Positions 5,432 through 52,462 of a DNA stretch of 64,000 bases are shown in pieces (within the stretch, counting starts at the first letter, position 1; each line of letters opens with the position of its first letter). Source of the DNA: Ianthella basta (Eukaryota; Porifera; Demospongiae; Verongiida; Ianthellidae); the NCBI GenBank assembly GCA_964019415.1, contig OZ025883.1, forward strand, positions 6,226,088 to 6,290,087, given 5' to 3'. The notes beneath the pieces were generated by a model, which saw nothing but the letters and a program-made list of their open reading frames with translations, did not search any database and was not told the DNA's origin. A program made the position numbers and the translations under genes.

Positions 5432-5840
5432 GTGAGTGCTCTTATACTGTATTGCAGTAGTGCATCCAACACACGTGGTGCTGTAGGTGGGTGAACCTGT
5501 GCCCTAGCTGGAGTTTGAATGGTAGCTAGTACCCTGCATGTAAAGGGGCTGTACTCAAGGTGGATCTAGCAGGGGCTACTATTGGCCTCAGGCCCCTCCT
5601 TCCTTAGCTTATTGGTATAGATAGGGGAAAGTTAAGATGGCTTGTAGCACATGTTGAGTCATTTGGAGTCATTAGCAGTAAATTGTAGGCAGTTGTAGTA
5701 ATGAACCATATTGTTTAGTAGTTAGGCATTTTGGGAGGCATTTTGTCTCTCTGTGTGTGAAGTTGTTCATCCAACAAGTGGTCCATTGTGTCTTCTGTAG
5801 GTCACACCTTCACTTGTATTTGAATTAGAGAGAATTGAAG

Positions 5841-8800
5841 ATGGATCTGTGCAATGCTTGTAGAGAGGGTGACTTGTTCAAAGTGAGGCGGTTAATTAAA
5901 GAGGGTCATGATGTGAACACCAGAGGTGAGTATGGCAGAACACCTTTAATAGAGGCAGCTATTGAGGGTCATGACCAAGTGGTGGAGGAGCTCATTACAG
6001 AAGGAGCTCATGTGAATGTAAAGAACAAGTATTCTCAACTAACTGCCCTTTACTGTGCCAGCTGGAATGGTCATTGCAGTGTTGTTAAAACACTGTGTGC
6101 AGCTGGTGCAGACACCAATGTACAAGATAAAGAGGGAGAGACCCCTTTGATGGGGGCAGCTTACTGGGGTAGGGATGAAATAGTGTGTGAACTGATTAGA
6201 GCAGGTGCTAGTGTGAATGTTGTCACTAGCCGGTGGTGGGGGGGGCTAGCTGCTGGCTCAACAGCCCTGCATTTTGCTGCTGCAAAGAATTTCAGTGTTG
6301 TGAAAAGACTGTGTGCAGCTGGTGCAGACACCAATGTACAAGATCGCTTTGGAGTGACCCCTTTGATGTGTGCAGTTGAGAGGGGTAGTGATGAAATAGT
6401 GTGTGAACTGATTAGAGCAGCTGCTAGTGTGAATGTTGTCACTAGTAGTGAGTGGTTGCGTGTAGCTGCTGGCTCAACAGCCCTGCATTTTGCTGCTAAG
6501 TACAATCGTATTAAATGCGGGGTTCTCCTTGTGGAGGCAGGAGCAGACATGACAGTCAGGGACAAATACTCCGAAACTCCCCTGGACCTTGCATCAGATG
6601 ACTTCCAACAAACTATTCAGCAGGCACAGTCTTTCTCTACCAAGCGCATTGTAGCAGTAATTGGCAATGCTGAACACGGCAAGAGTACACTGATAGCAGC
6701 TCTACAAGTTGAGGACACAGGCCGCTGGAAGAAGTTCATCAACAAGTTTATGAATGTGCAGGACATCAGCCAACGCACAGCTGGAATTGAAGCAGTTCAG
6801 TTCTCCAGTTGTAGGTATGGACAGACATTGTTCTACGACTTTGCTGGCCAGGCTGATTACCACGGCCCTCATCAGTCCATCTTGGAGGCCATCTTGAGCA
6901 AGACAGGAGTGTCTGTGACCCTGTTACTTCTGGTAAAGGCAATCGACAAGGAAGACATCATCACACAGCAAATCACTCGCTGGCTGCAACCTCTAGCTCT
7001 TACGTCAGCCCCATCCACTCCACAAGTGATCCTTGTTGGCAGTTTCCTTGACCGAGTAAAGTCCAAAGACGAAGCAGTCAAGAAGCTGCTACGATGCATT
7101 CATTCAGTGCAGGAGTTGCCTTTCAACATCCAGGGTCCCTGTCTCCTGGACTGCCGCAAGCCTGAATCTGAGGGTATCAATCAGATTTGCACCTTCTTTC
7201 AGGAGGTCCAACCTCTCCAGTTGAACTCTGATAGTCTCTCGTACAACCTCCGGTGGGTCCTAGTACAAGTGCAGAAAGCGTTCTCTGTTCCGGCCATCAC
7301 ACTCCACACTTTCCAGTCATGGCTATTGAAGAATGCTGAGCTGCTCTCCATGAACTTACCTCCAGCCGTGGAGGTGTGTCGTGATCTAACAGCAGTTGGT
7401 CATGCCCTCTTTCTCCCCAACAAGCTGGACCCCTCCCAAAGTTGGCTCATCTTGGACCTCCAAGCTGTTCTCCAAAATGTTTATGGCACCCTGTTCAGTG
7501 GGTCCCAGGGCAAGGTCAATCAGTTTGGTCTCCTCCACTGCAGTCAGCTGGCTGAGCTGTTTCCTGAAATGGATCTGACAATGATCCAAGAGGTTCTTAT
7601 CAGCCTTGATTTCTGCATCCAGGTGGATACAAAGATACTACGAGAAGACCTTGTGAAGCTAACTGCCGGTACTGAGGGAGAGGGATGGCTGTACTTCCCT
7701 GCTCTGGTGTCCGCCCAATCTCCGGAGCTCTTCCCAAAGGATGCTGACCCATACCACCTCCAGTGGGTGTGCTGGCAATTGAGGACAGAGGAGAAGCACC
7801 TCATTTCAGCACATCTCCTCCAATCCATCATCCTCCGTCTTGCAGCAAATCACGTGTTCACCCACAAGTTATCCAGTTGGAGAAAGCATTGCTGCACTGT
7901 TTGGATAAACGGCCTTTCCTGGATGTCCATCACTGGTGTGGAGGTAGCAGTCCAGATTGGTGACAGCAGTGTGATCCAGGTTGTTGGACGCAGCAAGGCA
8001 GGGCCTGATAGACTGAGCCAATACGTGTCAACCATAGTCCGAGATGTCATCAAGACAACTACCCAGCTGTCACCGAAGCTGAAGGCCACATCCTACATTG
8101 TCCACCCATACACACCTGCTATGTGGGAGAATACCAAAGCCCCTCCCCATGACTCACTGTATCCTGTTTTGAGCATCATCCGTTCCATCAGTGATGGAGG
8201 TGACCATGTTCCATCCCTGAAGCAAGTTGGCCGTCTTCCCATGAGTCTCACTGAGTTGTTTGGAGGCTGGTTTCCTTCTCTGTCACTTGTACAAGACATG
8301 GAGTATCAGACGGAGCCACAGAGTGGTGAGTGTGTTTCCTCTCCCTATAGGTGTTCAATTTGGCTATTCAGTCACTTCTTGTCTCTAAGAGTACCCAATA
8401 TGCTATTGTTGTACATGTGATAGTAAGGACCATTTGATGTACGTGTGTGTGTGCATTATTTCATTGTCTACTGTACATATACATATGTCCCCTTTGTGTC
8501 CTTGCTCTACCCTACAGGAGCAGCCTCCTCAAGTGATCAGGGACGTATAATTGTGCTCTGTCAGCCAGTGCACTCTGTGGGTAAGTCTCTCCATCCTCAG
8601 CATGGGTCTCTGAGGGCATGGGGCTACCTCACTGTGAGGGCATCTTGTGGGGTGGGTCAGAAAAAATGCCTCTGTTTTAGTGTTTGTATGTTGTGTATTG
8701 CAAATTGTAATTTGCCCATTTATTTCACACTAGCAGGGCACCCGCCTTTGGCAGGCTTCTGCTATGGTGAGTTGCACAACAGCGAGTCTGCCTCAGCCAG

Positions 8801-16245: not shown

Positions 16246-16510
16246 GCAGACATTAGTCACCAGTTATTGTATTATGAGTGTCGAAATATTCAAACATATC
16301 ATTTTCTGAAAAGGACAGTTTGACGATGGTAAATCTGTTTCCATGACAAGGTGTGCAAAATTCTTGACAAGCATAGTTTGTGAGAATTTGCTCCATTTTA
16401 TTATAATGCGAAATTGCAAAGCTTTCTCAAATGCAGTGTTCGTCACCATGGTAACGAGCAGGTGACAGTCATGTGACTGAATGTTGTGTCATCTGACTTG
16501 GTTATTGCAG

Positions 16511-16700
16511 GAGAAGCTGTTCGCGTTGCCTTATGAGGACTGGTGGATTGTGGATGACGTGATCCGGTGTGGCATGGCTCACATGAGGGCAGCCTCGGTC
16601 TGGGGTCTGGGGGAGTGTTCTATGATGAGTAAGTACGTGCAGATGATTCCAGAGGACAGTGTTGAGGGGTGTTCTGCCGGTCAGTGACAGCAGTGCAGGG
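16511..16700 (+). pseudogene. mTOR FAT-region exon, better-preserved copy
   Basis: After GTTATTGCAG the frame reads EKLFALPYEDWWIVDD, then MAHMRAASVWGLGECSMM and SKYVQMIPEDS. It follows mTOR CCEKWTLVND...KMARMAAAAAWGLGQWDSMEEYTCMIPRD. Beyond that, a one-base shift is needed to continue as VFCRSVTAVQG, and the current frame ends at TGA. The same shift occurs in the 13,918 copy, so both descend from an already broken exon. Confidence 0.75.
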
Positions 16701-17247
16701 AGAGGTACCTGCTGGCCTAACAGGGGAGGGGAGGGGAGAACTACACAGTGCTCCTTTCTGTATGATGTGCCCTATGACGGGGTTGTAGACATGGGCTTCA
16801 GGGTATGGGCAGGGCCTCCGTCATGATCGATGACATTTTGCACGAAGTGCCAGTTTTAACACAATTGCCAAGCATTGGTCCGATCCCCTCAACGCACACA
16901 CCATGTAATATACATCCCTGGTATATTATATGTATGCCCATATCCATGAATCATGTGTATCATTTGTGTTACTATGTGTTATTCCACAATATTGTATGGT
17001 TTGTATGTGTGTGTATTTCTATGTACATACTGTATGAACATACATGCACAACTTTAGCCTATTGCACTCATTACTTCACACCAGCTTATAATTTTCACAC
17101 AAGTTAGTTATTACAAGTGGAATTGAGTTAATCAGTACAAAGCCTACACTGTATCTAAATGCTATTCACACAATGAAGTTATGGTTCACTCTTGTATCCG
17201 ATCCTGTGTCCGTATCCAGAGACTAACCAATCTTGTGTATCCGAGGA

Positions 17248-17909
17248 CTAACCCCACCAACGGCGGCGACGTACATGACGGATAACCCTACGCACATGAG
17301 GGGCAGCCTTACGTGCATGACGGACAGCCCTACGTACATGACGGACAATCCTGGGAATCCTGAGAATTGTTCGAAATACACCCCACTGAAGTTTGACCAA
17401 TTTGTCTTTGTCCATTTGCCGTTTTTTCTCCGGAAACTTGGCTTGTATGCGTTCACCGCTTTCTTCTTGGCTGTGTGTCTCCTCATGCTCTATATCATTG
17501 CTGTCGGCCTGTTTGCCTTGGTCTTCCTCTCTCTCGCTGTCCTCCAATTCTTGGAGAAGGGCATCCAGATCATCTTCATAGTCGCCATCTACATCATCTG
17601 TGGCATGAGAAGAAATGATCAAGGCATGAACCTCTTACATGTAGTAGCTCCAGTACTTGGTTGTATATACATGTATAGTGTCCTCATGGTGCAGAGAGAT
17701 CTGCTGAGACTACATGTCAGTGCTATTCCCTGTAGTACTGAAACAGGCAGACTGAAGAATGGTTGTAGTCTCTGATGAGTGTTTTGGTCCTCACCTTCCA
17801 TACCGTTCTCATCAGCCCATTCTGGCTGCTGTCCTTCCTTCTGCGCTGAGCTCATGGAACCAAACAAAAGGCTGCCAAAGATGGCTACAAATAGGAATGC
17901 GGTCTTCAT
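17248..17909 (-). CDS. Secreted cationic heptad-repeat peptide precursor 1 (putative antimicrobial peptide)
   Basis: Two exons on minus, 17,909-17,795 and 17,597-17,248, have a GAAG/GTGAGG donor and CCACAG acceptor and give 154 aa. Residues 1-22 form a signal peptide (MKTAFLFVAIFGSLLFGSM). An acidic propiece follows (DGDYEDDLDALLQELEDSE, then EERE/HEETHSQEE). After a basic site (EKKR) and LVKLQW comes a cationic tail of four heptads, each of the type V-R-H-V-R-R, ending RRRRWWG. The last 36 residues hold 13 Arg, 4 His and 1 Lys and no acid. Val/Ile at positions a and d would make an amphipathic helix. The terminal Gly could donate an amide. This architecture is that of host-defence peptide precursors, where the acidic part neutralises the toxic tail until secretion. 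No named family was recognised. The start is the second Met, which gives the better signal sequence. A near-identical paralogue lies at 22.8-23.5 kb. Confidence 0.8.
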
Positions 17910-17982
17910 CCTGCTGCCGGGAACTTGTTCCACTTTCGCTGGACGTCCAACCTTGCTGTTGTTTGTTGTGTTGCAGTTGCTT

Positions 17983-17990
17983 TATTTATA
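17983..17990 (-). promoter_or_regulatory. TATA box of peptide gene 1
   Basis: TATAAATA on minus, about 75 bp upstream of the ATG at 17,909. It is conserved with its surroundings in the second gene copy (23,550-23,559). Confidence 0.65.
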
Positions 17991-18125
17991 GACTATTCTC
18001 TATTGTCTTCCTACTGATTAGGCCCACTACTGAGTACTGCATATGAACAGAGTGGCAGGAAATAACATTGACCACTGCAGTCGGAGGACAATACTGTGTA
18101 TTTACGGTATATGCCAGTGGTACTC

Positions 18126-19867
18126 ACCATTGCAATGGGTAGCTGTACATACATATGTACGTATGTAATTTTGTTTTTACACTTACTAGCTGAATACCGC
18201 CCTTTGGGTGCGTTCCCAGCCTATTGCCTGCAATTTGAACACATGTAGCGAATCAAAATAATTATTGTGTATTTTAAGTGTCCCGTTTCTGTAGACTAAC
18301 TCCGTAAAACTCCACGGGCACAAAGTTTCTTAGGTTAGTGTATTTCATCTAAAGGAGGCCAGCAGCAATGACACCAGCCACCTTAGACCACTCACAGTTT
18401 TGTTATTTTGCCATGTGCCACACTTGGTGTTGATTGGTATAGAAAACTGATGGAGGAGTTTATGGACAAAGGAACTACAATCTTTAAATTGTCCTATCCC
18501 ATAGATATTGTGGTGACTGTAAAGATGCAAGAAGTCAGGCGAAGCGGCCTTTAACCAAATTTCAGCTCTGCCATGTCCCTCTCTCACAACACCTCCCCAT
18601 ACTCCTACCACGATTAGTGATCATTCTTCACCAACTGAAGGAATATTTCATGGGACACCTACAAACATGATTTACATACCACCACCACGCACCACACAGT
18701 GCAAGTTACATTACGATCGTGCACCACTTGTGCTAGTAGTGTAAAAGCACTAGTCGCTGGTTGAAGAATACCACCATGCAGCGCAATGTTACAGAGGCTC
18801 AGGACCACATGAGCAAAAAGAGCTATTGCACTAGTTGGTGGTAGAATATTGAACACAACCCATGCATGCAAGCTGCAATAGTTCAGGAGCATGTTCTAGT
18901 ACAGTAGAGAGAAAGACCACCAGCACATTGTGATAGAGGCTCAGGACCACATGTGCACTGCACAATGCAGTAAGCAAAGTTGTGTACGTAACTTGCACAA
19001 AAGGGTGTGTAGACTGTAACGTATGCCCATATATGCTAGTTACATTGCTTACTGCATTGTGTACTCGAGTGGTGGCCTGAGAAGCCATATTGTTCACATA
19101 GGACTTGTCCCACATGTTCCTTTATAGTAGACAATACCATTCAAGCTGCTTTCCTATGCTAATCAATAGGCACCATTTATATTTTGGAATATCATCGTTG
19201 TGTTTCCGTATATTGAGTGGTGCCCTTTGTATACCTCTGAAGCTTCCAATGGTACAAACACAAGTGGACCATGTCAATAGAGAAAGGCACACAGCTGTCT
19301 TGTGGTTACAAGGTCATTCCACTCCTTAGAAGCGGAATTGCTTAAGGGTATCACAGCATATGGGTTACAAACCATTGTACAAGCAAACCAACGCATGCAT
19401 TCTGTAAAGGCACAGATCCCGAGGTACCCCTTTGACTGATGCAGTCAAAAGTTGAACGACCCATTTACCAGTGATGAAGGAGAACTACCTATCTTTGGAT
19501 TACCATCAAGGATAACCTTTTTCAGCCAGCATACTCCTCCTCCAGGCACACAGTAACATCTGCATCCTTGTTCAGAATGTTATGCCAATCATTAATACAG
19601 TCAGCATAAATTATATAGCATTTCAACATTTAGCTAGGGATTACCTTCACTATATAGTCCATCCAGAAACTTGAACTCTTACTAACCAATAGTCTGTGAA
19701 ATCTTGATGTGTCTTCCAGGCCATCAGCAATGCTGCATCCCCAACTACTATCTGAAGTACTGAACATTCACAGCATACATGGAGACATAGCTGGTGGGTA
19801 GTTTGAGTGTTAGGGGGCGCAGATGCCCCCAGTTTTTTAATCCGGAGCACATCTTTTCTGTGAGCTC
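18126..19867. other. Duplicated non-coding region with a SINE-like head and a decayed exon-like block
   Basis: 18,183-18,340 starts CTAGCTGAATACCGCCCTTT, a short retroposon head also seen at 37,087. 18,660-18,850 resembles 24,045-24,180. 19,135-19,380 is repeated at 20,240 and 21,135 (phrase CCTATGCTAATCAATAG). 19,440-19,770 resembles 24,320-24,620. On minus that last pair retains blocks such as LDGNP.IG and GLED, suggesting a decayed exon of an unidentified gene. Confidence 0.5.
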
Positions 19868-21700
19868 ATATCCTGTGTGTGGTGTGGTCTGGTCCAGTGT
19901 CACTCCACACAGTGTGTGTATGTGAGTGTAGTGTTTACCACATGTCCTGTGTGTGGTGTGGTCTGGTCCAGTGTCACTCCACACAGTGTGTGTATGTGAG
20001 TGTAGTGTTTACCTCATCTTCTGTGTGTGTTGTGGTCTGGTCCAGTGTCACTCCACATGGCGTGTGTATGTGAGTGTAGTGTTTACCTCATGTCCTGTGT
20101 GTGGTGTGGTGTATAATTGTGTGTGGTTCCTTCACTGTACAATGGACCATTCCAGATGCATGTCTGTATGATTGAATGCCCATCTGTGTGCATGTATGTC
20201 CATCCCTAACCGAACTCACTTCCCCCTCTGCCTCTCAAACTACTTTCCTATGCTAATCAATAGGCACCATTTATATGTTGGGATATTCTTGTTGTGTTTC
20301 CGCACACTGAGTGGTGCCCTTTGTATACCTCTGAAGCTTTCAATGGTACAAACACAAGTGGACCATGTCAATAGAGAAGCCACACAGCTGTCTTGTGGTT
20401 ACAAGGTCATTCCACTCCTTGGAAGTGGAATCACTTCAAGGTATCACTAGCATACGGATGTCGAACCATTGTACACGTTGGTGTATTTGCAAATACACTA
20501 ACGCATGCATCTGTAAAGGCACAAACCAAGCACCACACAGTGCGTGCATGTGGGTGTAGTGTTTACCTCATATCCTGTGTGAGGTGTGGTGTATACTTCT
20601 GTGTGTTTCCTTCATTGTACAACAGAAAGGTATGTGACATTCCATTTGTGTCTGCATGCTTGTGTTTACACACAAACATGCAGGATAAAAACGGTGCAAA
20701 TTGACGCCGTTTTGACTTACCGTTTACACACAAACGATGAAAATACTAGAGTAAAACAATCATATCCTAATCCGCTGTTGAAGGTGGATACAGCCTTGTG
20801 AGTGTAGTATGTGAGTGTAGTGTTTACCTCATGTTCTGTGTGTGTTGTGGTCTGGTCCAGTGTCACTCCACACGGCGTGTGTATGTGAGTGTAGTGTTTA
20901 CCTCATGTTCTGTGTGTGGTGTGGTCTGGTCCAGTGTCACTCCACACAGTGTGTGTATGTGAGTGTAGTGTTTACCTCATGTCCTGTGTGTGGTGTGGTG
21001 TATAATTGTGTGTGTTTCCTTCACTGTACAATGGACCATTCCTGATGCATGTCTGTATGATTGAATGCCCATCTGTGTGAATGTGTGTTCATCCCTAACC
21101 GAACTCACTTCCCCCTCTGCCTCTCAAACTACTTTCCTATGCTAATCAATAGACACCATTTATATGTTGGGATATTCTTGTTGTGTTTCCGCACACTGAG
21201 TGGTGCCCTTTGTATACCTCTGAAGCTTCCAATGGTACAAACACAAGTGGAACATGTCAATACAGAAAGCCACACAGCTGTCTTGTGGTTACAAGGTCAT
21301 TCCACTCCTTGGAAGTGGAATCACTTCAAGGTATCACTAGCATATGGGTGTCGAACCATTGTACACATTGGTGTATTTGCAAATACACTAACGCATGCAT
21401 CTGTAAAGGCACAAACCAAGCACTGCACAGTGTGTGTATGTGGGTGTAGTGTTTACCTCATATCCTGTGTGAGGTGTAGTGTATAATTCTGTGTGTTTCC
21501 TTCATTGTACAACAGAAAGGTATGTGACATTCTATTTGTGTCTGCATGCTTGTGTTTACACACAGACATGCAGGATAAAAATGGTGCAAATTGACACCAT
21601 TTTGACTTACCGTTTACACACAAACGATGAAAATGCTAGAGAAAAATGATCACATCCTAATCCGCTGTTGAGGGTGGATACTTGCAAAAACGGTGCCACA
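19868..21700. repeat. ~0.9-kb tandem duplication built on the 74-bp minisatellite
   Basis: 19,868-20,790 and 20,812-21,690 are tandem copies. Each contains two to three 74-bp minisatellite units, then the segment with CCTATGCTAATCAATAG and TTCCACTCCTTGGAAGTGG, then a further partial minisatellite unit and an end with CCTAATCCGCTGTTGA. Divergence is low, so this duplication is recent. Confidence 0.85.
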
Positions 21701-22349
21701 ATGTCTTCGTGTAAACAGCAAAACGATCGGGTTTTTGGGGTGTAGCTTCTACTGTGACATGTCACACCCGAGACAGCATCCAACATCAGCTGAAACCACA
21801 AAGTAAGCTCATCTCTTCAACTCCAAGCATTTTGTGTACTAACCTCATCACCAAATTAACGGTTTGGTGTCACAGCGCAAGCGATTGATTCCTGTTACTC
21901 CTATCGTTTTAGCATTTAAATAACCCACTGGGTTGGCGGCAAGCTGTTTTGCGTAGTCCTCAAATATTGGCATTTTACGAATTCAGTGAAACTTCAGATG
22001 TAATTAATGCAAGGATGAAATGAACAGAGATCTGGGTTTCTAATCCTGCCAATAATCTTTCTCTGCCTAGTCCCTGCAGCTAGAAAAGCGGCTAACAAAA
22101 GGTGTAGTATCTAAGTGAGACATGTTCCGCCACTTCAGGTTTAGACATGTCACATGTACCTGTAAAGGGACGAAATTTCTTAATGAGTAGCTTTTTATCT
22201 TAAATCTTACCTGACAGCGTACATGGCAGTGTGGTGCCTTGTGCATATTTGTTAATGGACTATGAGTTTTGACAGATGAAACTACTTATTACATTAATGC
22301 AGTATCCCATTCTGTTGTGGGTGTTGATGGAGGGGGGGAGGTAGCAGAG
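21701..22349. other. Spacer, no supported gene
   Basis: There is no coding signal. 22,205-22,350 resembles 25,430-25,560 (ACATGGCAGT.TGGTGCCT, TTGATGGAGGGGGG) and forms the left flank of duplication unit B. Confidence 0.45.
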
Positions 22350-22823
22350 GTGACGGGGTTGTAGACATGGGCTTCAGGGTATGGGCAGGGCCTCCGTCGT
22401 GATCGATGACATTTTGCACGAAGTGCCAGTTTTAACACGATTGCCAAGCATTGGTCCAATCCCCCCAACGCACACACCGTGTAATATACATCCCTGGTAT
22501 ATTATATGTATTCCCATATCCATGAATCATGTGTATCATTTGTGTTACTATGTGTTATTCCACAGTATTGTATTGTTTGTATGTGTGTGTATTTCTATGT
22601 ACATACTGTATGAACATACATGCACAACTTCAGCCTATTGCACTCATTACTTCACACCAGCTAATAATTTTCACACAAGTTAGTTATTACAAGTGGAATT
22701 GAGTTAATCAGTACAAAGCCTACACTGTATCTAAATGCTATTCACACAATGAAGTTATGGTTCACTCTTGTATCCAATCCTGTGTCTGTATCCAGAGACT
22801 AACCAATCTTGTGTATCCAAGGA

Positions 22824-23473
22824 CTAACCCCACCCACGGCGACGTACATGACGGATAACCCTACGTACATGAGGGGCAGCCTTGCGTACATGACTGACAG
22901 CACTACATACGTGACGGACAATCCCGGGAATCGTGCGAATAAAACGCCACTGAAGTTTGACCAATTTGTCTTTGTCCATTTGCTGATTTTTCTCCGGAAA
23001 ATTGGCTTGTATGCGTTCACCGCTTTCTTCTTGGCTGTGCGTCTCCTCATGCTCTATATCATTGCTGTCGGCCTGTTTTCCTTGGTCTTCCTCTCTCTCG
23101 CTGTCCTCCAATTCTTGGAGAAGGGCATCCAGATCATCTTCATAGTCGCCATCTACATCATCTGTGGCACGAGAGAAAAGGATCGAGGCATGAACCTCTT
23201 ACATGTAGTAGCTCCAGTACTTGGTTGTATACACATGTATAGTGTCCTCATGGTGCAGAGAGATCTGCTGAGACTACATGTCAGTGCTATTCCCTGTAGT
23301 ACTGAAACGAGCAGACTGAAGAATGGTTGTAGTCTTTGAAGTGTGTTTTGGTCCTCACCTTCGATACTGTTCTCATCAGCCCATTCTGGTTGCTGTCCTT
23401 CATTCTGCACTGAGCTCATGGAACCGAGCAAAATGCTGCCAAAGATGGCTGCAAGCAGGAATGCGGCCTTCAT
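22824..23473 (-). CDS. Secreted cationic heptad-repeat peptide precursor 2 (putative antimicrobial peptide)
   Basis: Two exons on minus, 23,473-23,359 and 23,161-22,824, have the same splice sites and phases as gene 1 and give 150 aa. The signal peptide is MKAAFLLAAIFGSILLGSM. The acidic propiece is almost unchanged from gene 1 (three substitutions over about 70 residues). The tail begins FIRTIPGIVRHVCSAVSHV and ends VIRHVRRRGWG. Compared with gene 1 it lost four residues before the heptads, gained one Cys, replaced several Arg by Ser or Gly, and changed the EKKR processing site to EKNQ. All reading frames and splice sites are open, so it looks functional. Role is inferred as for gene 1; the altered charge and lost basic site suggest a different activity or processing. 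Confidence 0.8.
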
Positions 23474-23549: not shown

Positions 23550-23559
23550 TTTATTTATA
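23550..23559 (-). promoter_or_regulatory. TATA box of peptide gene 2
   Basis: TATAAATAAA on minus, same distance from the ATG as in gene 1, within the conserved block GCAGTTGCTTTATTTATA. Confidence 0.65.
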
Positions 23560-41059: not shown

Positions 41060-42491
41060 TTAATTGGATGTTCATGCACTTTGCAATATAATAAGCACAA
41101 TTATTGTTATATCAATTGTACAATCTGGGGTGGTACATATCATAATAATTGTATTATTATATCTCCAGCAGTCACACACAATATTACAGAGAATCACAAT
41201 TGATATGAAATAAGAATCTCACAATAAACATGCATGCACAATGTCATGTATATTCTTGTATATAAATCTACACTGCAACGTACAACACTGTTTAAATGTG
41301 TACATATACATAGCTGGTTCACCAATATTTAATGGTTAATTCTCGATCCAAATTCACTCGCAATGTGAACGTTATGTGGTACTAATGCTGTTGACATGGG
41401 TGGGAGTGGTGGAGGCCGACCCTCCAGTAGACACCTGGCAGTGCAGGTCAAAGCCATGCATGTGTACAGCGCGAGGGAATGCATTCCTAGAGATATACAT
41501 CTTGTATAAATAATTATAATATCAGAATATATAATTTTCAGTGGCTCAGAGATGGGTGACACTATATGATTATGGCTGCTATTTTACTTTAATTATACAC
41601 TGTGGCCACACACTCTGTATACAATGAAATTACAAGAGTGATGCATGACGATGTTAAAAATGTTGTAATTATTCTCACAATACATTTGGATGCATAATTA
41701 TGTATAGCTATAGTTGTATGATCTTTCCATTATGATGGCTGTCAAGATGACACTGGTATATTATATATATATCATATACACCATAAATTGACTGACTGGC
41801 TAGGGCTTCTTAAATTGACTGAAGTATATTGGATTCACTGTCACAATGTGTAATTATATATGAAACGTGATCCAAAATACTCAGATTCCAGTAAAATACA
41901 ATCAATGGCAATATGGCAACTGGTGTGTTTATGCGTCTTTTTCAAGCCACCAGTGCATGCAATGGAACAGCAAATTACATAGTCAGCACTGATTGGGCTT
42001 TGATTACATGGCAATATCATAATTGTATACTATGCTTGCATGCACCTATTCTAGATTAGTCTGGCACGCTAGCCCCTACTTCTGGCCTTGATTGCATGTG
42101 ATCGGGGGCCGAAAGTATAGGGGCTAATGTGCCAGATTAATTTTAGATAAAAGACAGATTAACATGCACGTATTCAATGGAACAATACATATTCTCTGCA
42201 TTCCATGGGGTAAGTGACAGTGTTACAAATTTATGTTCTGTGGTATCAGTTTCCGTAAGAAACAGGCAGGGACGTCTGCATCAAACAGCTCCATCATTAA
42301 AGAAGTGCCATTGTTATGCCTCCAACAGAGGTAGTTTTGTGCACACACATCTCTTAGTAGCACAGCAGGTCTTGGACAAGACAGCATGATTTATAGTCCT
42401 TTTTATCAAGAACGGTTCTTATCTTAAGAGATGATGCTATGAATAACTCAAGAGGCAGGCCACATTGCACTGTATTTATTAATTAAAGATA
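41060..42491. repeat. Diverged duplicate of the GTPase-gene flanks, exon 2 absent
   Basis: 41,065-41,310 matches 46,262-46,517 (GGATGTTCATGCACTTTGCA, CTGGGGTGGTACATATC), and 41,775-42,491 matches 47,368-48,083 (GGGCTTCTTAAATTGACTGA, CAGCACTGATTGGGCTT). In the second location these flank the GTPase exon 2; here the exon is missing. The duplicate resumes after the retroelement at 45,667. Confidence 0.8.
42052..42148. mobile_element. MITE-like hairpin (copy also at 47,645-47,738)
   Basis: Inverted ends ATTAGTCTGGCAC / GTGCCAGATTAAT and inner GCTAGCCCCTA / TAGGGGCTA enclose a short loop. The copy in the GTPase intron is at the orthologous position of the duplication, so the hairpin predates the duplication. 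Confidence 0.7.
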
Positions 42492-42501
42492 ATTTTATCC
42501 C
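42492..42501. repeat. Target-site duplication, left
   Basis: ATTTTATCCC directly precedes the retroelement and is repeated at 45,657-45,666. The paralogous empty site at 48,085-48,094 has a single copy, ATGTTATCCC. Confidence 0.8.
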
Positions 42502-45500
42502 TACCCCGTCATGTGACGGATGATGATGGGAAAATGGCGGAAAGATCTCAAGCACGATCGCAAAGATGTTGCCCATGTATGAAGACTGGTCGCTGTGTGA
42601 GGTGTCAGTGCGTGAAGAATAAGCTATCGTGTGTCGATTGTTGGCCATCGCTGTCAAACCCAATTAGATGCCAGAATTTGAAGCGCTCACCTTTAACACC
42701 GATTCCAGTCGCGGAATCTCGCGTAAGAAGTAACGTTGAAAGCCCTCGCATACCGGATTGCACTCACTCAGAAGATTCAGAATCTATCGGTTCGGAAATT
42801 GGAGAACTGCTTAAAATTTTAGCCAAGCCTACAAGGATTTTAAGAAGGATACCCCGCCTGTCTCGACCATCTGCTGCTAGAAAGCTCGCCGCCATTATTG
42901 AACAAGTTGTGTCTCGTAATGACGTCCCATCCTGGGCTAGGCTTCTCCAATTTCCCAGAAGGTGTCTTCGCCGTCCTGAGCGAGGGGGTAGGCGGTGGAG
43001 TTTGGCTTCTTCAGTTAGTAAGCAAGTGTCCGAAGAGAACGGTGATCCCAACGAGTCGTACAGTACTGGAAGCTATGGAAGACGGCCAAAATCGCGGAAT
43101 TCCACGGAGGCATTGGCGGCCAGAGTCAGCAGCAAGTTGGAGGAAGGGGACTACAGAGGTGCAGTGAGGTTGGCTTGTAGCAGGGACACAATAGCAGAGC
43201 AGTCCCCTTCCACAATTGAAGCCATGAAACTGAAGCATCCCCCGCGGAATTTGAATTCCATCATTGAGGATCAGCCACACCCGGCTCCCTTGAGTTTCAC
43301 TGTTAATGAAGAATTGATTAGAAGAGCAATCATGTCGTTTCCCAGTGGCTCTAGTGGGGGAACTGATGGTTTGCTGCCACAACACCTGAAGGATCTTATT
43401 GGACCTGCAGCAGAGGATGGTGCTGTAAGTGTTTTGAATGCGCTAACTGCCTTGATTACCTTGATTCTAGAAGGTAGAACACCTGTAGCAGTACGCAGTT
43501 TATTGTTCGGTGCTAAACTTACAGCGCTCACAAAAGAAAATGGTGGCCTTCGCCCAATTGCTGTGGGAAGTACCATCAGGAGACTTGCTTCTAAGTGTGC
43601 ATGCCTTCATGCTCTCAATACCATCCCAGATATCCTGGCTCCCCACCAATTAGGGTTCGGAATTCCCAGTGGAGTGGAAGCAGCAGTGCATGCCACAAGG
43701 ATTTACTTGCACAACCTACCATCCAACAAAGCCCTCATTAAGGTAGATTTTGAAAATGCATTCAACAGTGTCAGGCGTGACAAGATGCTTTATGCAGTGA
43801 AGAAGTTCATTCCAGAACTATTGCCATATGTCCACTCAGCCTACTCTACCGAGTCAGTGCTTTTATGGGAGAAAGTGGAGATCATCTCATCAGAGGGTAT
43901 ACAACAAGGAGACCCTATTGGCCCATTGTTGTTCTGCTTATCCATCCACGACCTTGTCTCTAGTTTGAAGTCAGAGTACAAGATCTTCTATCTTGATGAT
44001 GGTACAATAGGAGGCACACTTGAGGACATCGCTGCGGACCTGTCATTCATCGAAGAAGCAGGGGAGCAACTAGGCTTGCGACTTAATGTAGCAAAGTCTG
44101 AACTGATCTGTAATGATGGTTTTGATACACAGGATATGCCTGTGCTGGCTGATCTGCAGTATGTTAGTCCTGATCAAGCAATGTTACTGGGGTCTCCTTT
44201 GGGGGCTATGTCATTGAAGAAAGTTTTGGATTGCCAAATTAGCCAGCTTCAATTGATAGGAGAACGCCTGCACCACCTCCATGCACATGATGCTCTTACT
44301 CTCCTTCGGCATTCATTCTCTGTCCCAAAACTGCTACATATTTTGCGTACATCACCAGCTTTCCAGACACCTTTGTTAATTTCTTGGGACCATCTGCTGC
44401 TATCCATCTTGTCTAAGATCACCAACCTCAACTTCCATCCAGATGATCCCTGCTGGCTTCAGGCCACTCTCCCTGTCTGGTGTGGTGGTCTTGGCATACG
44501 AAGGGCCTCCCATCTTGCACCTACTGCCTTTTTGGCTTCAGCTGATGGAGCCCTGTCGCTTATGCTAGACCTGTTACCAGCTCACCTCTCAACAACTCAG
44601 TATGAGGAAAGAGATTTTGCTTTGAGGGTGTGGAAGCAAGACCTACCACCCGAGATGCCTGCACCCACTACATCGAGTAGGCAGAAAGTCTGGGATAGGC
44701 CAAGGATTGATGCTCTGTTTGAGACCATCCTCACACTCTGCAATGATGATGAATCCAAAGCCAGGTTGCTGGCTGCTGGCTCAGCAGAATCTGGAGCATG
44801 GCTGAATGCTCCGCCAGTTTCTTCCCTTGGACTGAGAATGAGTGATGAGGCCATCAGGATTGCTGTGGGTTTGAGAGTGGGAGCTCCCCTTGGACAGCCT
44901 CACCAGTGTGCACACTGTGGCAGTGATGTTGACCAATTTTTCAGACATGGTCTAAGTTGTCGTTTCAGCCAGGGGAGATTGTCGCGTCACAACACTGTGA
45001 ATAGTCTCATCCAACACGCTCTCACAGCTGCGAAAATCCCCTCTCGGCTAGAGCCTTCAGGGTTGCACCGGGCAGATGGGAAGCGTCCTGATGGGATGAC
45101 CATGGTTCCCTGGGAACAAGGAAAGTATCTAGTATGGGATGCCACATGTGTCGATACGTTTTGTCAGTCGCACCGTCGAAGAGCAGCCACAGAGCCAGGA
45201 GGAGCAGCGGCACATGCTGAAGAAGAGAAGGCCAAGAAGTATGCTCACCTGGACAGCATGTATCTTTTCCAGCCAGTTGCTCTGGAGACTTGTGGTACCA
45301 TTGGTCCAAAGTCCAGGGATTTTCTGAGGGAGCTTGGCCAGCGGCTCAAGATGGTTACTGGGGAAGCACGGTCATGTACCTTTCTACTGCAGAGAATCTC
45401 CATTGCCATTCAGGTCGGAAATGCAGCATCGGTGATTGCATCCCTCCCTGACAGTGCTAATGTTGACATCAGTTTTGATCTCTGACGATTCTGTTTTAGC

Positions 45501-46601: not shown

Positions 46602-47218
46602 TCACATTATACTACAACACCCATCACCGTTTGATTCTGATCTTTTCAGGGATGCTGACTTTTTCTTGGAACCACTAACACTAGTGCTTTGACTTCTGCC
46701 TATCTGGAATGTGTCAGGATCAAACGAGTCAGACAGAGTAAAGGTAGACACTTCTTTCACTCCAGGGGAAGTTTTCTCAAGTTTCTTCGCTGCTCGTCCC
46801 AATGTCACAAGCAGCTTCGTAAACCCCTCCTTGGTGTCCAGGTTCACTTCAAATATGAGGCACTCACTGAGGTAGTGATGCTGTAGAAAATTGCTCAGCG
46901 TATCAAGGGAGACTTCCGTGTTGTCATAAGTGAGGGGAGGGTGTAGCTCCAGAGCCTGTTTGGACCGCAAGCCAACTAGACCAAAGGAGTAGGTCCTGTC
47001 AGCTTTATCCATTTGGACCTTTGCAGTCTCAATCCAGGTGTCCAGTGACTGAAGAGTCTTGACATCATAACAGCAGTATACAAGAAGGATCAACCGTGCA
47101 TTGCGATAATACTGGGGCATCATGGAGTTGACCTTAGTGTGTCCAGCTGTGTCACAGAACTGCAGCTGATTCATTGCAAGCAAAGAGGAGAGAGGTAGTA
47201 AATCATTACACTCTCCTT

Positions 47219-50491: not shown

Positions 50492-52462
50492 TTAAAATAT
50501 GCGTGGTTTCTTTGCTTTTTGCACTCCTTGGGCTGGGTGGCAAGTGGGGCAGAACCATTTACCTGAAGGAACTGCTGCCATTTGCAAACATGACACATGG
50601 AACCACTTGATTGGGCAATTTTTGTTGTCGCAACCAACCATGTCACCTCCTCTTGATTCCTGGCAATAGCACCATGTCCCCGGATCATCATCATCTGCAT
50701 CATCGGCCAATTCATCTGTAGGCAATATAGTGTGACTCCGGGTATACCACTTCCCAGCCAGCTCGGGAAGTATACATAGCCTGAAGAAGTGATCGGCCTT
50801 TACCAAATTCAATTGCTGGTCAACAGGGGCAATGCGCTCGACATGAAGGCCTGCACTGTGCCAGACAGCAAAATCACAGTATGCACGCCTTGTAACATGC
50901 AACTGCAACTGGCATTGTAGGTAATATGGATGGTCCGTTGCCAGATGTAGGGATCCTGTTGCGGTTTTCTGCAGACAAAAATCCTTCTGCTGCTCAGCAA
51001 CCTCTTCCAGAGATGCAGCATCCCTGGCACTCCAAGGACACTTTACTTCAACAATTCCAAGCCCACAACAAGTACAGTGCACCAAAGCATCAGGTGATGC
51101 ACCAAGATAGGGAGCTTTTCGATCAACAAACAAGCCACATGCCTTGATATTCAAGCCCACATGTCCATCCATCCTTGACTTGTAAGCCTCTATTGCCTGA
51201 TCTTCATGAGTAGATCCATACGCGGTAGCATCAGTAGTAAATCTGTATGATTCTGGATAGCACACTTTTCGGACTAGTGACAAGGATGGCTGGTGTGGGT
51301 CGGTATGACACACTTGGTGAAACTGAGAGGCTGTGATACGACCAGCCCTATACTTAAACCACTGCTTGTTCTTAGCCTGACCTCTCGTCAGTTCTTCCAA
51401 GTGGCTGACTTGCTCCTCGCTGATTGCCTCTCGACACACATTCTCAACTTTCCCCAGCAATTGAGTATAGTTCAGGTCAAGGTAATCTGGCTCGTATAGA
51501 TCTTGAAGGAGAGGTGGTAGGTGATCTGAAGCTGTGGTGAAACGCTCACAATACTCCTCCGTCAGGCTGAGTATAGCTGGCTTCCTATTCGTGTCCTTGC
51601 TAAGGTCACTGAGAAGCTCTGCCAGCTCTTGCTGGGTAGGTGCCTGCTTGGCTACCATTTCCTTCCATTTCGAACTTGAAGTTGACACTTTATTCCTCTG
51701 TGAGGCTGTCTTCTCTAGTTCTTCCATGGTAAGGTATGGCACCTGGCTACAAGCCATTGGCATGGATGGAGGTAACCACATGTTAGGCTTGGAGGTGCAG
51801 GTGGCATCGCGACGAATCCGAACGGCAGTCTCCAGCCAGTAAAGCATAGCTGCAACGTGGGAGCATGTTTCTGCCAAGCCAGCCATGCACGTGCAGTGGC
51901 CACATTTAACTGTACCATTCTTCTGGATGGCTACCCATGGTCTTAGAGGGCTTAAGCTGGCTGTGTACGAATGCTTTACTCTTCCAGTCAAAAGGACAAT
52001 GTCGCCATACAGCTTCCAGGATGCTTCAAGGACCCATCCATCAATAAAGTACTTGTATGCGTCCAGGCTTTTGTAATTTCTTACTTCTTCTTCCGTCTTA
52101 AAACTGGTAGTGAATATCAGATAATGGTACAGGTCGGGATACCTGTGTGTGAGAAATTCAAGAAAGGACAAGTGGTGAACAAGGTGACATGAACAGGGAT
52201 AATGTTATAGAGTTAATAACACTTGCATACGGGAGCCTACAAGACAGAACAACTAAAGAATCAAGTGCAGGCTGCGTAGCTACGCGTGCATATGCCCTAC
52301 TCACATGAAATCTGGAAGATCGTCCTCCATCTGCGAAAAGGCGTCCTTCTTCAACCAACATGGGTCTTCGCCATTAAAAAGAGCTATCTTCTGGGTGTAC
52401 CGCTTCTTGCTTGCACTGTCCAGAGTGAAATAATAGTCGGAGAGCCGCTTTCGATCTGCCAT
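50492..52462 (-). CDS. SWIM zinc finger / YqaJ-like nuclease / PHD finger protein of the transposon
   Basis: Exons 52,462-52,305 and 52,142-50,492 on minus are joined at AT/GTGAGT and CACACAG/G, giving 602 aa. The SWIM finger is C136-T-C138...C146-S-H148. The YqaJ/lambda-exonuclease fold has WFKYRAGRITAS, GASPD (D404), then IVEVKCPW (E418, K420) and YYLQCQLQLHVT, which are the D...ExK metal site and the following helix. An acidic linker leads to a C-terminal PHD finger (C544 to C587; CYCQESRGGDMVGCD, WFHVSCL, WFCPTC). It is open and complete. In ISL2EU-type transposons this partner is thought to act in DNA processing; the PHD could tether it to histones. Its role here is inferred from context. 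Confidence 0.85.

Follow-up and report, generated by a model that had tools for sequence, protein, structure and literature searches.

We analyzed a 64,000-nucleotide (nt) stretch of the genome of the sponge Ianthella basta (hereafter the window) and found on its minus strand two paralogous two-exon genes, A and B (Table 1). By sequence comparison they appear to be short members of a family that includes large polycationic proteins. By analogy with known systems, their products may well be precursors of a cationic peptide that is secreted, amidated at its C-terminus and active on membranes, and that would act like a Hydra arminin. An original prediction, made from the letters of the window, had already placed two minus-strand paralogs with two exons each here, and our gene models coincide with it exactly.

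The two genes share one design. Their N-terminus is hydrophobic and of signal-peptide type, with a small-residue SSA/Q end (judged by inspection), and leads into an acidic propiece and a cationic tail. Counted as R+K minus D+E, and with the signal included, the net charge upstream of KLVKLQW is -21 in A and -25 in B, versus +18 over the 51 tail residues of A and +13 over the 47 of B. Each tail holds four His; A has no Cys and B has one. The TATA box TATAAATA stands 81 nt before the ATG in A and, starting at 23559, 86 nt before it in B. Indeed, the splice sites, intron phase and TATA box that had been described as conserved are the same in both genes. The predicted plan of a secreted precursor with an acidic propiece and an amphipathic cationic tail is also supported.

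Table 1. Features of the window (window coordinates) and, where contig C2 is named, the long paralogs elsewhere in the genome; aa, amino acids.
Feature	Position	Strand	Details
Gene A	ATG 17909 to stop 17248	minus	154 aa
Gene A exon 1	17795..17909 (115 nt)	minus	signal peptide and propiece start (MKTAFLFVAIFGSLLFGSMSSAQ...); exon matched in six C16 copies
Gene A intron	17598..17794 (197 nt)	minus	GT-AG, phase 1; same length in 6/6 C16 copies
Gene A exon 2, with stop	17248..17597	minus	acidic propiece, VKLQWGVF motif, cationic tail with RRRRWWG end
Gene A tail repeat	17269..17352	minus	21-bp (7-residue) tandem repeat, 4.0 copies (Tandem Repeats Finder)
Gene A promoter stretch	17983..18094	minus	ends at TATA box; TATAAATA begins at 17990
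Gene A 3' flank	16899..17090	minus	homologous to 3' flank of the 605-aa C2 paralog
Gene B	ATG 23473 to stop 22824	minus	150 aa
Gene B exon 1	23359..23473	minus	signal peptide and propiece start
Gene B intron	23162..23358 (197 nt)	minus	GT-AG, phase 1
Gene B exon 2, with stop	22824..23161	minus	acidic propiece, cationic tail with RRRGWG end
Gene B tail repeat	22842..22920	minus	21-bp tandem repeat, 3.8 copies (Tandem Repeats Finder)
Long paralogs, contig C2	9553102, 9558535, 9565995, 9992252	minus	
Long paralogs, contig C2	11023864, 11028562	plus	
863-aa open frame	5829-8420	plus	ankyrin repeats; weak GTPase match (MMR_HSR1) under cut-off
1000-aa open frame, retroelement	42483-45485	plus	reverse transcriptase domain
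204-aa open frame	46602-47216	minus	Ras and Roc matches over cut-off
570-aa open frame	50492-52204	minus	YqaJ exonuclease domain; weak PHD finger match under cut-off

The genes had been described as a pair, a count that grew when we searched the genome from which the window comes (209 Mb in 96 contigs): at least six A-type genes lie on one strand of contig C16 between 6.027 and 6.250 Mb. All six have an open frame (five of 154 aa, B of 150 aa), with an exon 1 of 115 nt and an intron of 197 nt, and A shares 89-97% identity with the other copies. The sense frame of exon 2 has a ratio of non-synonymous to synonymous substitution rates (dN/dS) of 0.44 and zero stops across these copies. Four of the five other frames give 0.93-1.18, and the fifth gives 0.43 but cannot be coding because it contains 6-7 stops. 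By region, dN/dS is 0.33 in the propiece, 0.66 in the tail, 1.05 in the signal and 0.52 over all, values that come from 15 non-independent pairs of six copies and from small counts. Together these results establish that A and B are genuine coding genes under constraint, beyond chance. A long antisense open reading frame (17227-17775) was rejected as a gene: the stop-free antisense frame of its exon 2 part has a ratio of 1.12, and it therefore looks like a shadow of gene A.

We also considered that the copies are young duplicates, decaying or unexpressed. Their high identity to A is in keeping with this, and the copy with its ATG at C16:6027917 lacks the common promoter, since its homology to A ends exactly at the ATG with unrelated sequence directly upstream. 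In Hydra, 24 of 28 periculin paralogs were reported to be without transcription in a cell atlas (PMC10945409). The six open frames and the exon 2 ratio speak against decay, which we regard as improbable.

The promoter stretch of gene A recurs, over 73-113 bp ending at the TATA box and with 83-86% identity, at 13 listed places that have no match to the coding part of A, including C16:6.97-7.12 Mb and C2:7.94-8.24 Mb. Four of these were read and showed no clear secreted open reading frame downstream; three of the four have further matches in the window, among them one to 16413-16759, immediately downstream of A. The recurring stretch is either a promoter module common to these places or a dispersed repeat that includes one.

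The cationic tail is not free sequence; in both genes it is an in-frame 21-bp tandem repeat that encodes heptads such as VRHVRRA. Across the six copies its hydrophobic moment is 0.63-0.70 with a peak angle of 103-106 degrees, the expectation for a heptad being 102.9 degrees. Shuffled tails had a mean moment of 0.33-0.35 (standard deviation about 0.08), and the observed value was met by at most 1 in 2000 shuffles in every copy. Among the public relatives, P0003 is shorter than P0002 by exactly seven tail residues (by eye). AlphaFold2 drew the tail as helices at very low confidence, with a mean predicted local distance difference test score (pLDDT) of 52.9; this model and a second one (48.7) were too poor for a fold search.

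The tail ends in W-G, as originally predicted, in all six genomic copies and also in P0001-P0004, and a C-terminal G is found in one of the six long paralogs. A PHM/PAL-like gene, of the amidating-enzyme type, is present in the same genome at C17:6320681 (family search; exons recognised by eye). Other members of the copper-monooxygenase family include a DOMON-type monooxygenase on C4, and a cluster with many copper monooxygenase C-domain fragments of the same wider family occupies C1:8.10-8.80 Mb. The C-terminal Gly, the PHM/PAL-like gene and the -RWWG end would also suit a secreted neuropeptide-like signalling precursor, whose amidated C-terminal peptide acts on a receptor. Such precursors should carry short peptides between dibasic sites, whereas A and B carry one repetitive helical tail of about 50 residues whose length varies by heptad, and neuropeptides were reported as not found in sponges before the study of PMC9004410. 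We consider a signalling role very improbable.

No named family with this plan had been recognised in the original prediction, but Hydra arminins (PMC4820302) and Trichoplax arminin-like precursors (PMC12013895) are described as having it. In arminins an acidic, highly conserved N-region precedes a cationic, poorly conserved C-region, and recombinant c-arminin 1a is reported to be bactericidal (PMC4820302); bipartite charge and clustered paralogs are described for most Hydra antimicrobial peptides (AMPs; PMC10945409). The Trichoplax precursors are described as 150-250 aa long, with DE cleavage motifs and a C-terminal Gly for PAM (PMC12013895). A and B have the arminin-type traits of a signal-type N-terminus, a propiece of lower dN/dS than the tail (0.33 versus 0.66), clustering, and a WG end in a genome with a PHM/PAL-like gene. 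It is in plan that they resemble arminins, through an N-part that is acidic and conserved, a C-part that is cationic and variable, the clustering of paralogs and the terminal Gly. By description they also resemble Trichoplax AMP1-4, which are 150-250 aa long and have a signal peptide, an acidic half followed by a basic one, and a C-terminal Gly (PMC12013895). Unlike A and B, arminins are reported as confined to Hydra (PMC10945409). A and B differ further from arminins by the heptad-repeat tail and by their long polycationic paralogs. We know of no counterpart of these long paralogs among arminins.

ASABF peptides are Cys-stabilised, and A and B, with 0-1 Cys, do not fit an ASABF-type or knottin fold. 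An ASABF-type peptide of Suberites domuncula is described as a sponge antimicrobial peptide (PMC3210614). Hydra periculins resemble A and B in bipartite charge and clustered paralogs, but are reported to have a complex Cys pattern (PMC10945409), which the zero Cys of A and the single one of B cannot form.

Six larger genes on contig C2 were matched by exon 2 or by a long form that exon 2 had brought up. The open exon-2 frame spans 376 to 741 residues in the first five; in the sixth (11028562) the frame has 561 residues and there is an additional intron. In four (9553102, 9565995, 9992252 and 11023864) we could read a signal exon with a phase-1 intron behind it; at C2:9558535 no signal exon was found within the 1.5 kb searched. 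As a single sequence, A matched C2:11023864 strongly (E 2e-14) and 9565995 (E 8e-5), 9558535 (E 0.004), 9553102 (E 0.007) and 9992252 (E 0.18) weakly; these last four are assigned to the family by alignment, profile match, intron phase and long-to-long matches. With tails excluded, the propiece-plus-junction profiles of the short forms (including a 605-aa paralog on C2) and the long forms matched each other with an hhalign probability of 95.6 and E 1.3e-8.

The long paralogs have a common acidic segment, for example DDFDDALNDLRD where the short form has DDLDALLQELED, followed by V[KS]xQWGxF[KR] (VKFQWKPR in the sixth) and by long cationic stretches, in which, for four of the paralogs, units of 11 residues (VWRGVKRVGRK, for instance) could be made out by eye. 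The stretches lead into a segment resembling KSPIGQxLIxGGLTALGVPPMVSGP and then into varied ends that are often Gly- or Pro/Gln/Tyr-rich; the KSPIGQ...GVPPxVSGP segment is absent from A and B. In an alignment of 11 sequences the junction residues V, Q and W never vary, and K, G and F are conserved in at least 90%. We coined the name VKxQWGxF polycation family for this group, and A and B show its traits: a signal exon with a phase-1 intron, the acidic propiece, the junction and a cationic amphipathic part.

When 5.8 billion proteins, possibly with poor coverage of animal proteomes, were queried with the alignment of the family, scoring of the top 7992 candidates gave 12 proteins, all of the VKxQWGxF polycation family. 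The public relatives P0007-P0012 resemble the long paralogs, the long relatives being 37-44% identical to the C2:9992252 protein, and P0011 and P0012 have a signal-type N-terminus in the same frame.

In the curated family databases, nothing exceeded the Pfam cut-off for A, B, three long forms of this genome or P0010-P0012, nor the NCBIfam cut-off for A, P0011 or P0008. Sub-threshold Pfam matches (SNARE, synuclein, phasin, senescence, suprabasin) fit a common helix composition, not kinship, and were set aside, as was a match at C9:73910 (E 0.58), a chance match to a His/Met repeat. A search of the PDB gave nothing convincing (the best match of one search was labelled a designed helical bundle), Rfam gave no match in the window at gathering thresholds, and a literature search of open-access titles, abstract beginnings and passages returned no paper describing the family. 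The high Arg content, and a match of the long relative P0011 to an archaeal histone model far under the cut-off, could point to a chromatin or nucleic-acid-binding basic protein; given a signal-type N-terminus, an acidic propiece and no match over cut-off, we find this scarcely credible.

The relation between short and long forms is best seen in the 605-aa gene at C2:11023536-11025555. It aligns with A from the promoter region into the beginning of exon 2, at 65% over 854 columns, with an intron of 202 nt versus 197 nt in A. The alignment resumes right after its stop codon, in the 3' flank of A, at 66% over 343 columns (E 6e-28); the two flanks score 112 bits versus at most 25.4 bits in 40 shuffles. 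Between the aligned blocks lie about 1.43 kb of coding sequence in the 605-aa gene and about 100 nt of tail in A. The two genes thus have the promoter region, signal exon, intron, propiece and 3' flank in common and differ solely in the C-terminal coding part. Given that every other C2 paralog, like P0007-P0012, is of the long form, we infer from these sequences that loss in the A/B lineage, from long to short, is the simpler direction. Tentatively, an AMP family may have been born by the shrinking of a large secreted polycation with Lys/Arg/Trp repeats: about 450 C-terminal codons would have been lost, a heptad tail from a 21-bp minisatellite and an amidation signal gained, and the promoter region, signal exon, propiece and 3' flank kept, before duplication to at least six copies. 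We hold this scenario to be possible, short of probable. The architecture being already known, origin from a long polycation looks to be the new part. The long proteins themselves may be polymeric membrane-active defence proteins or matrix proteins of an unnamed kind.

Since the family to which A and B belong as short members also has large polycationic proteins, a matrix or structural role enters as the main rival to antimicrobial action. A and B would then be extracellular matrix, mucus or mineral-associated polycations. Through the tail they would bind polyanions such as glycans, silica or acidic proteins, a function retained from the long family. The long proteins combine extended helices rich in Lys and Arg with a hydrophobic segment and with ends rich in Gly or in Pro/Gln/Tyr, their C-termini are matrix-like, and one of them has its promoter region, intron, propiece and 3' flank in common with gene A. 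A and B, however, have neither the hydrophobic nor the Gly/Tyr-rich parts, and their last residue is a Gly of the amidation type. The known glass-sponge silica proteins are described as different in kind. Perisilin contains a CAP-like domain, with His-rich ends in some members, and silica proteins are reported to bear random His-rich stretches (PMC10772126). Perisilin, glassin and hexaxilin are, like the putative products of A and B, secreted or silica-embedded sponge proteins, some with His-rich parts (PMC10772126). The tails of A and B form a regular cationic heptad repeat in place of random His-rich stretches or a CAP-like domain, and the Pfam scan listed no CAP match for either. For the silica context of the genome, we read the active site in 14 of the 45 cathepsin-family matches; the Cys (SCW) is retained in 11 and lost in three, all on C6. 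These three cathepsin-like genes lie at C6:3129864-3135966 and have Ser at or near its place. A change from Cys to Ser at a cathepsin-type active site is typical of silicatein. Overall, we consider a matrix or mineral-binding role of A and B unlikely, though it carries real weight.

A membrane-active peptide is favored because the plan of A and B is that of arminins and Trichoplax arminin-like precursors. The signal peptide of the precursor would be removed, and the acidic propiece would hold the tail neutral along the secretory route. A protease would free the tail near the conserved VKxQWG junction, and an amidating enzyme would convert the terminal Gly into an amide. The freed helix of 47-51 residues would then bind anionic microbial membranes. 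A demosponge is reported to possess signal peptidase subunits and prohormone convertases (PMC6850559). Several observations weigh against the membrane-active peptide. Six of the 12 family genes found in the genome encode long, matrix-looking proteins of a size unlike that of a classical AMP. The tail helices were modelled by AlphaFold2 at very low confidence only (mean pLDDT 52.9). Constraint is weak on the tail, where changes are few, and absent on the signal. Finally, no fully conserved dibasic site precedes the tail, which follows KKRQ in five of the six copies and KNQQ in B. With these points counted, antimicrobial action is the best reading by analogy, and we hold it with middling confidence.

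Elsewhere in the window, large direct repeats about 889 bp apart occupy 19141-21566, with 74-bp tandem units that also occur at 399-796. The other open frames with recognisable domains are listed in Table 1.

If the proposed function is true, the arminin-type plan of an acidic guard and a cationic amidated helix would be present in a third early animal lineage, beside Hydra and Trichoplax, and its route of origin would be visible as the miniaturisation of a large polycation. The long family, with six paralogs in this genome and six long members under the Pfam cut-offs, would then be an undescribed family of extracellular proteins with readily testable chemistry.

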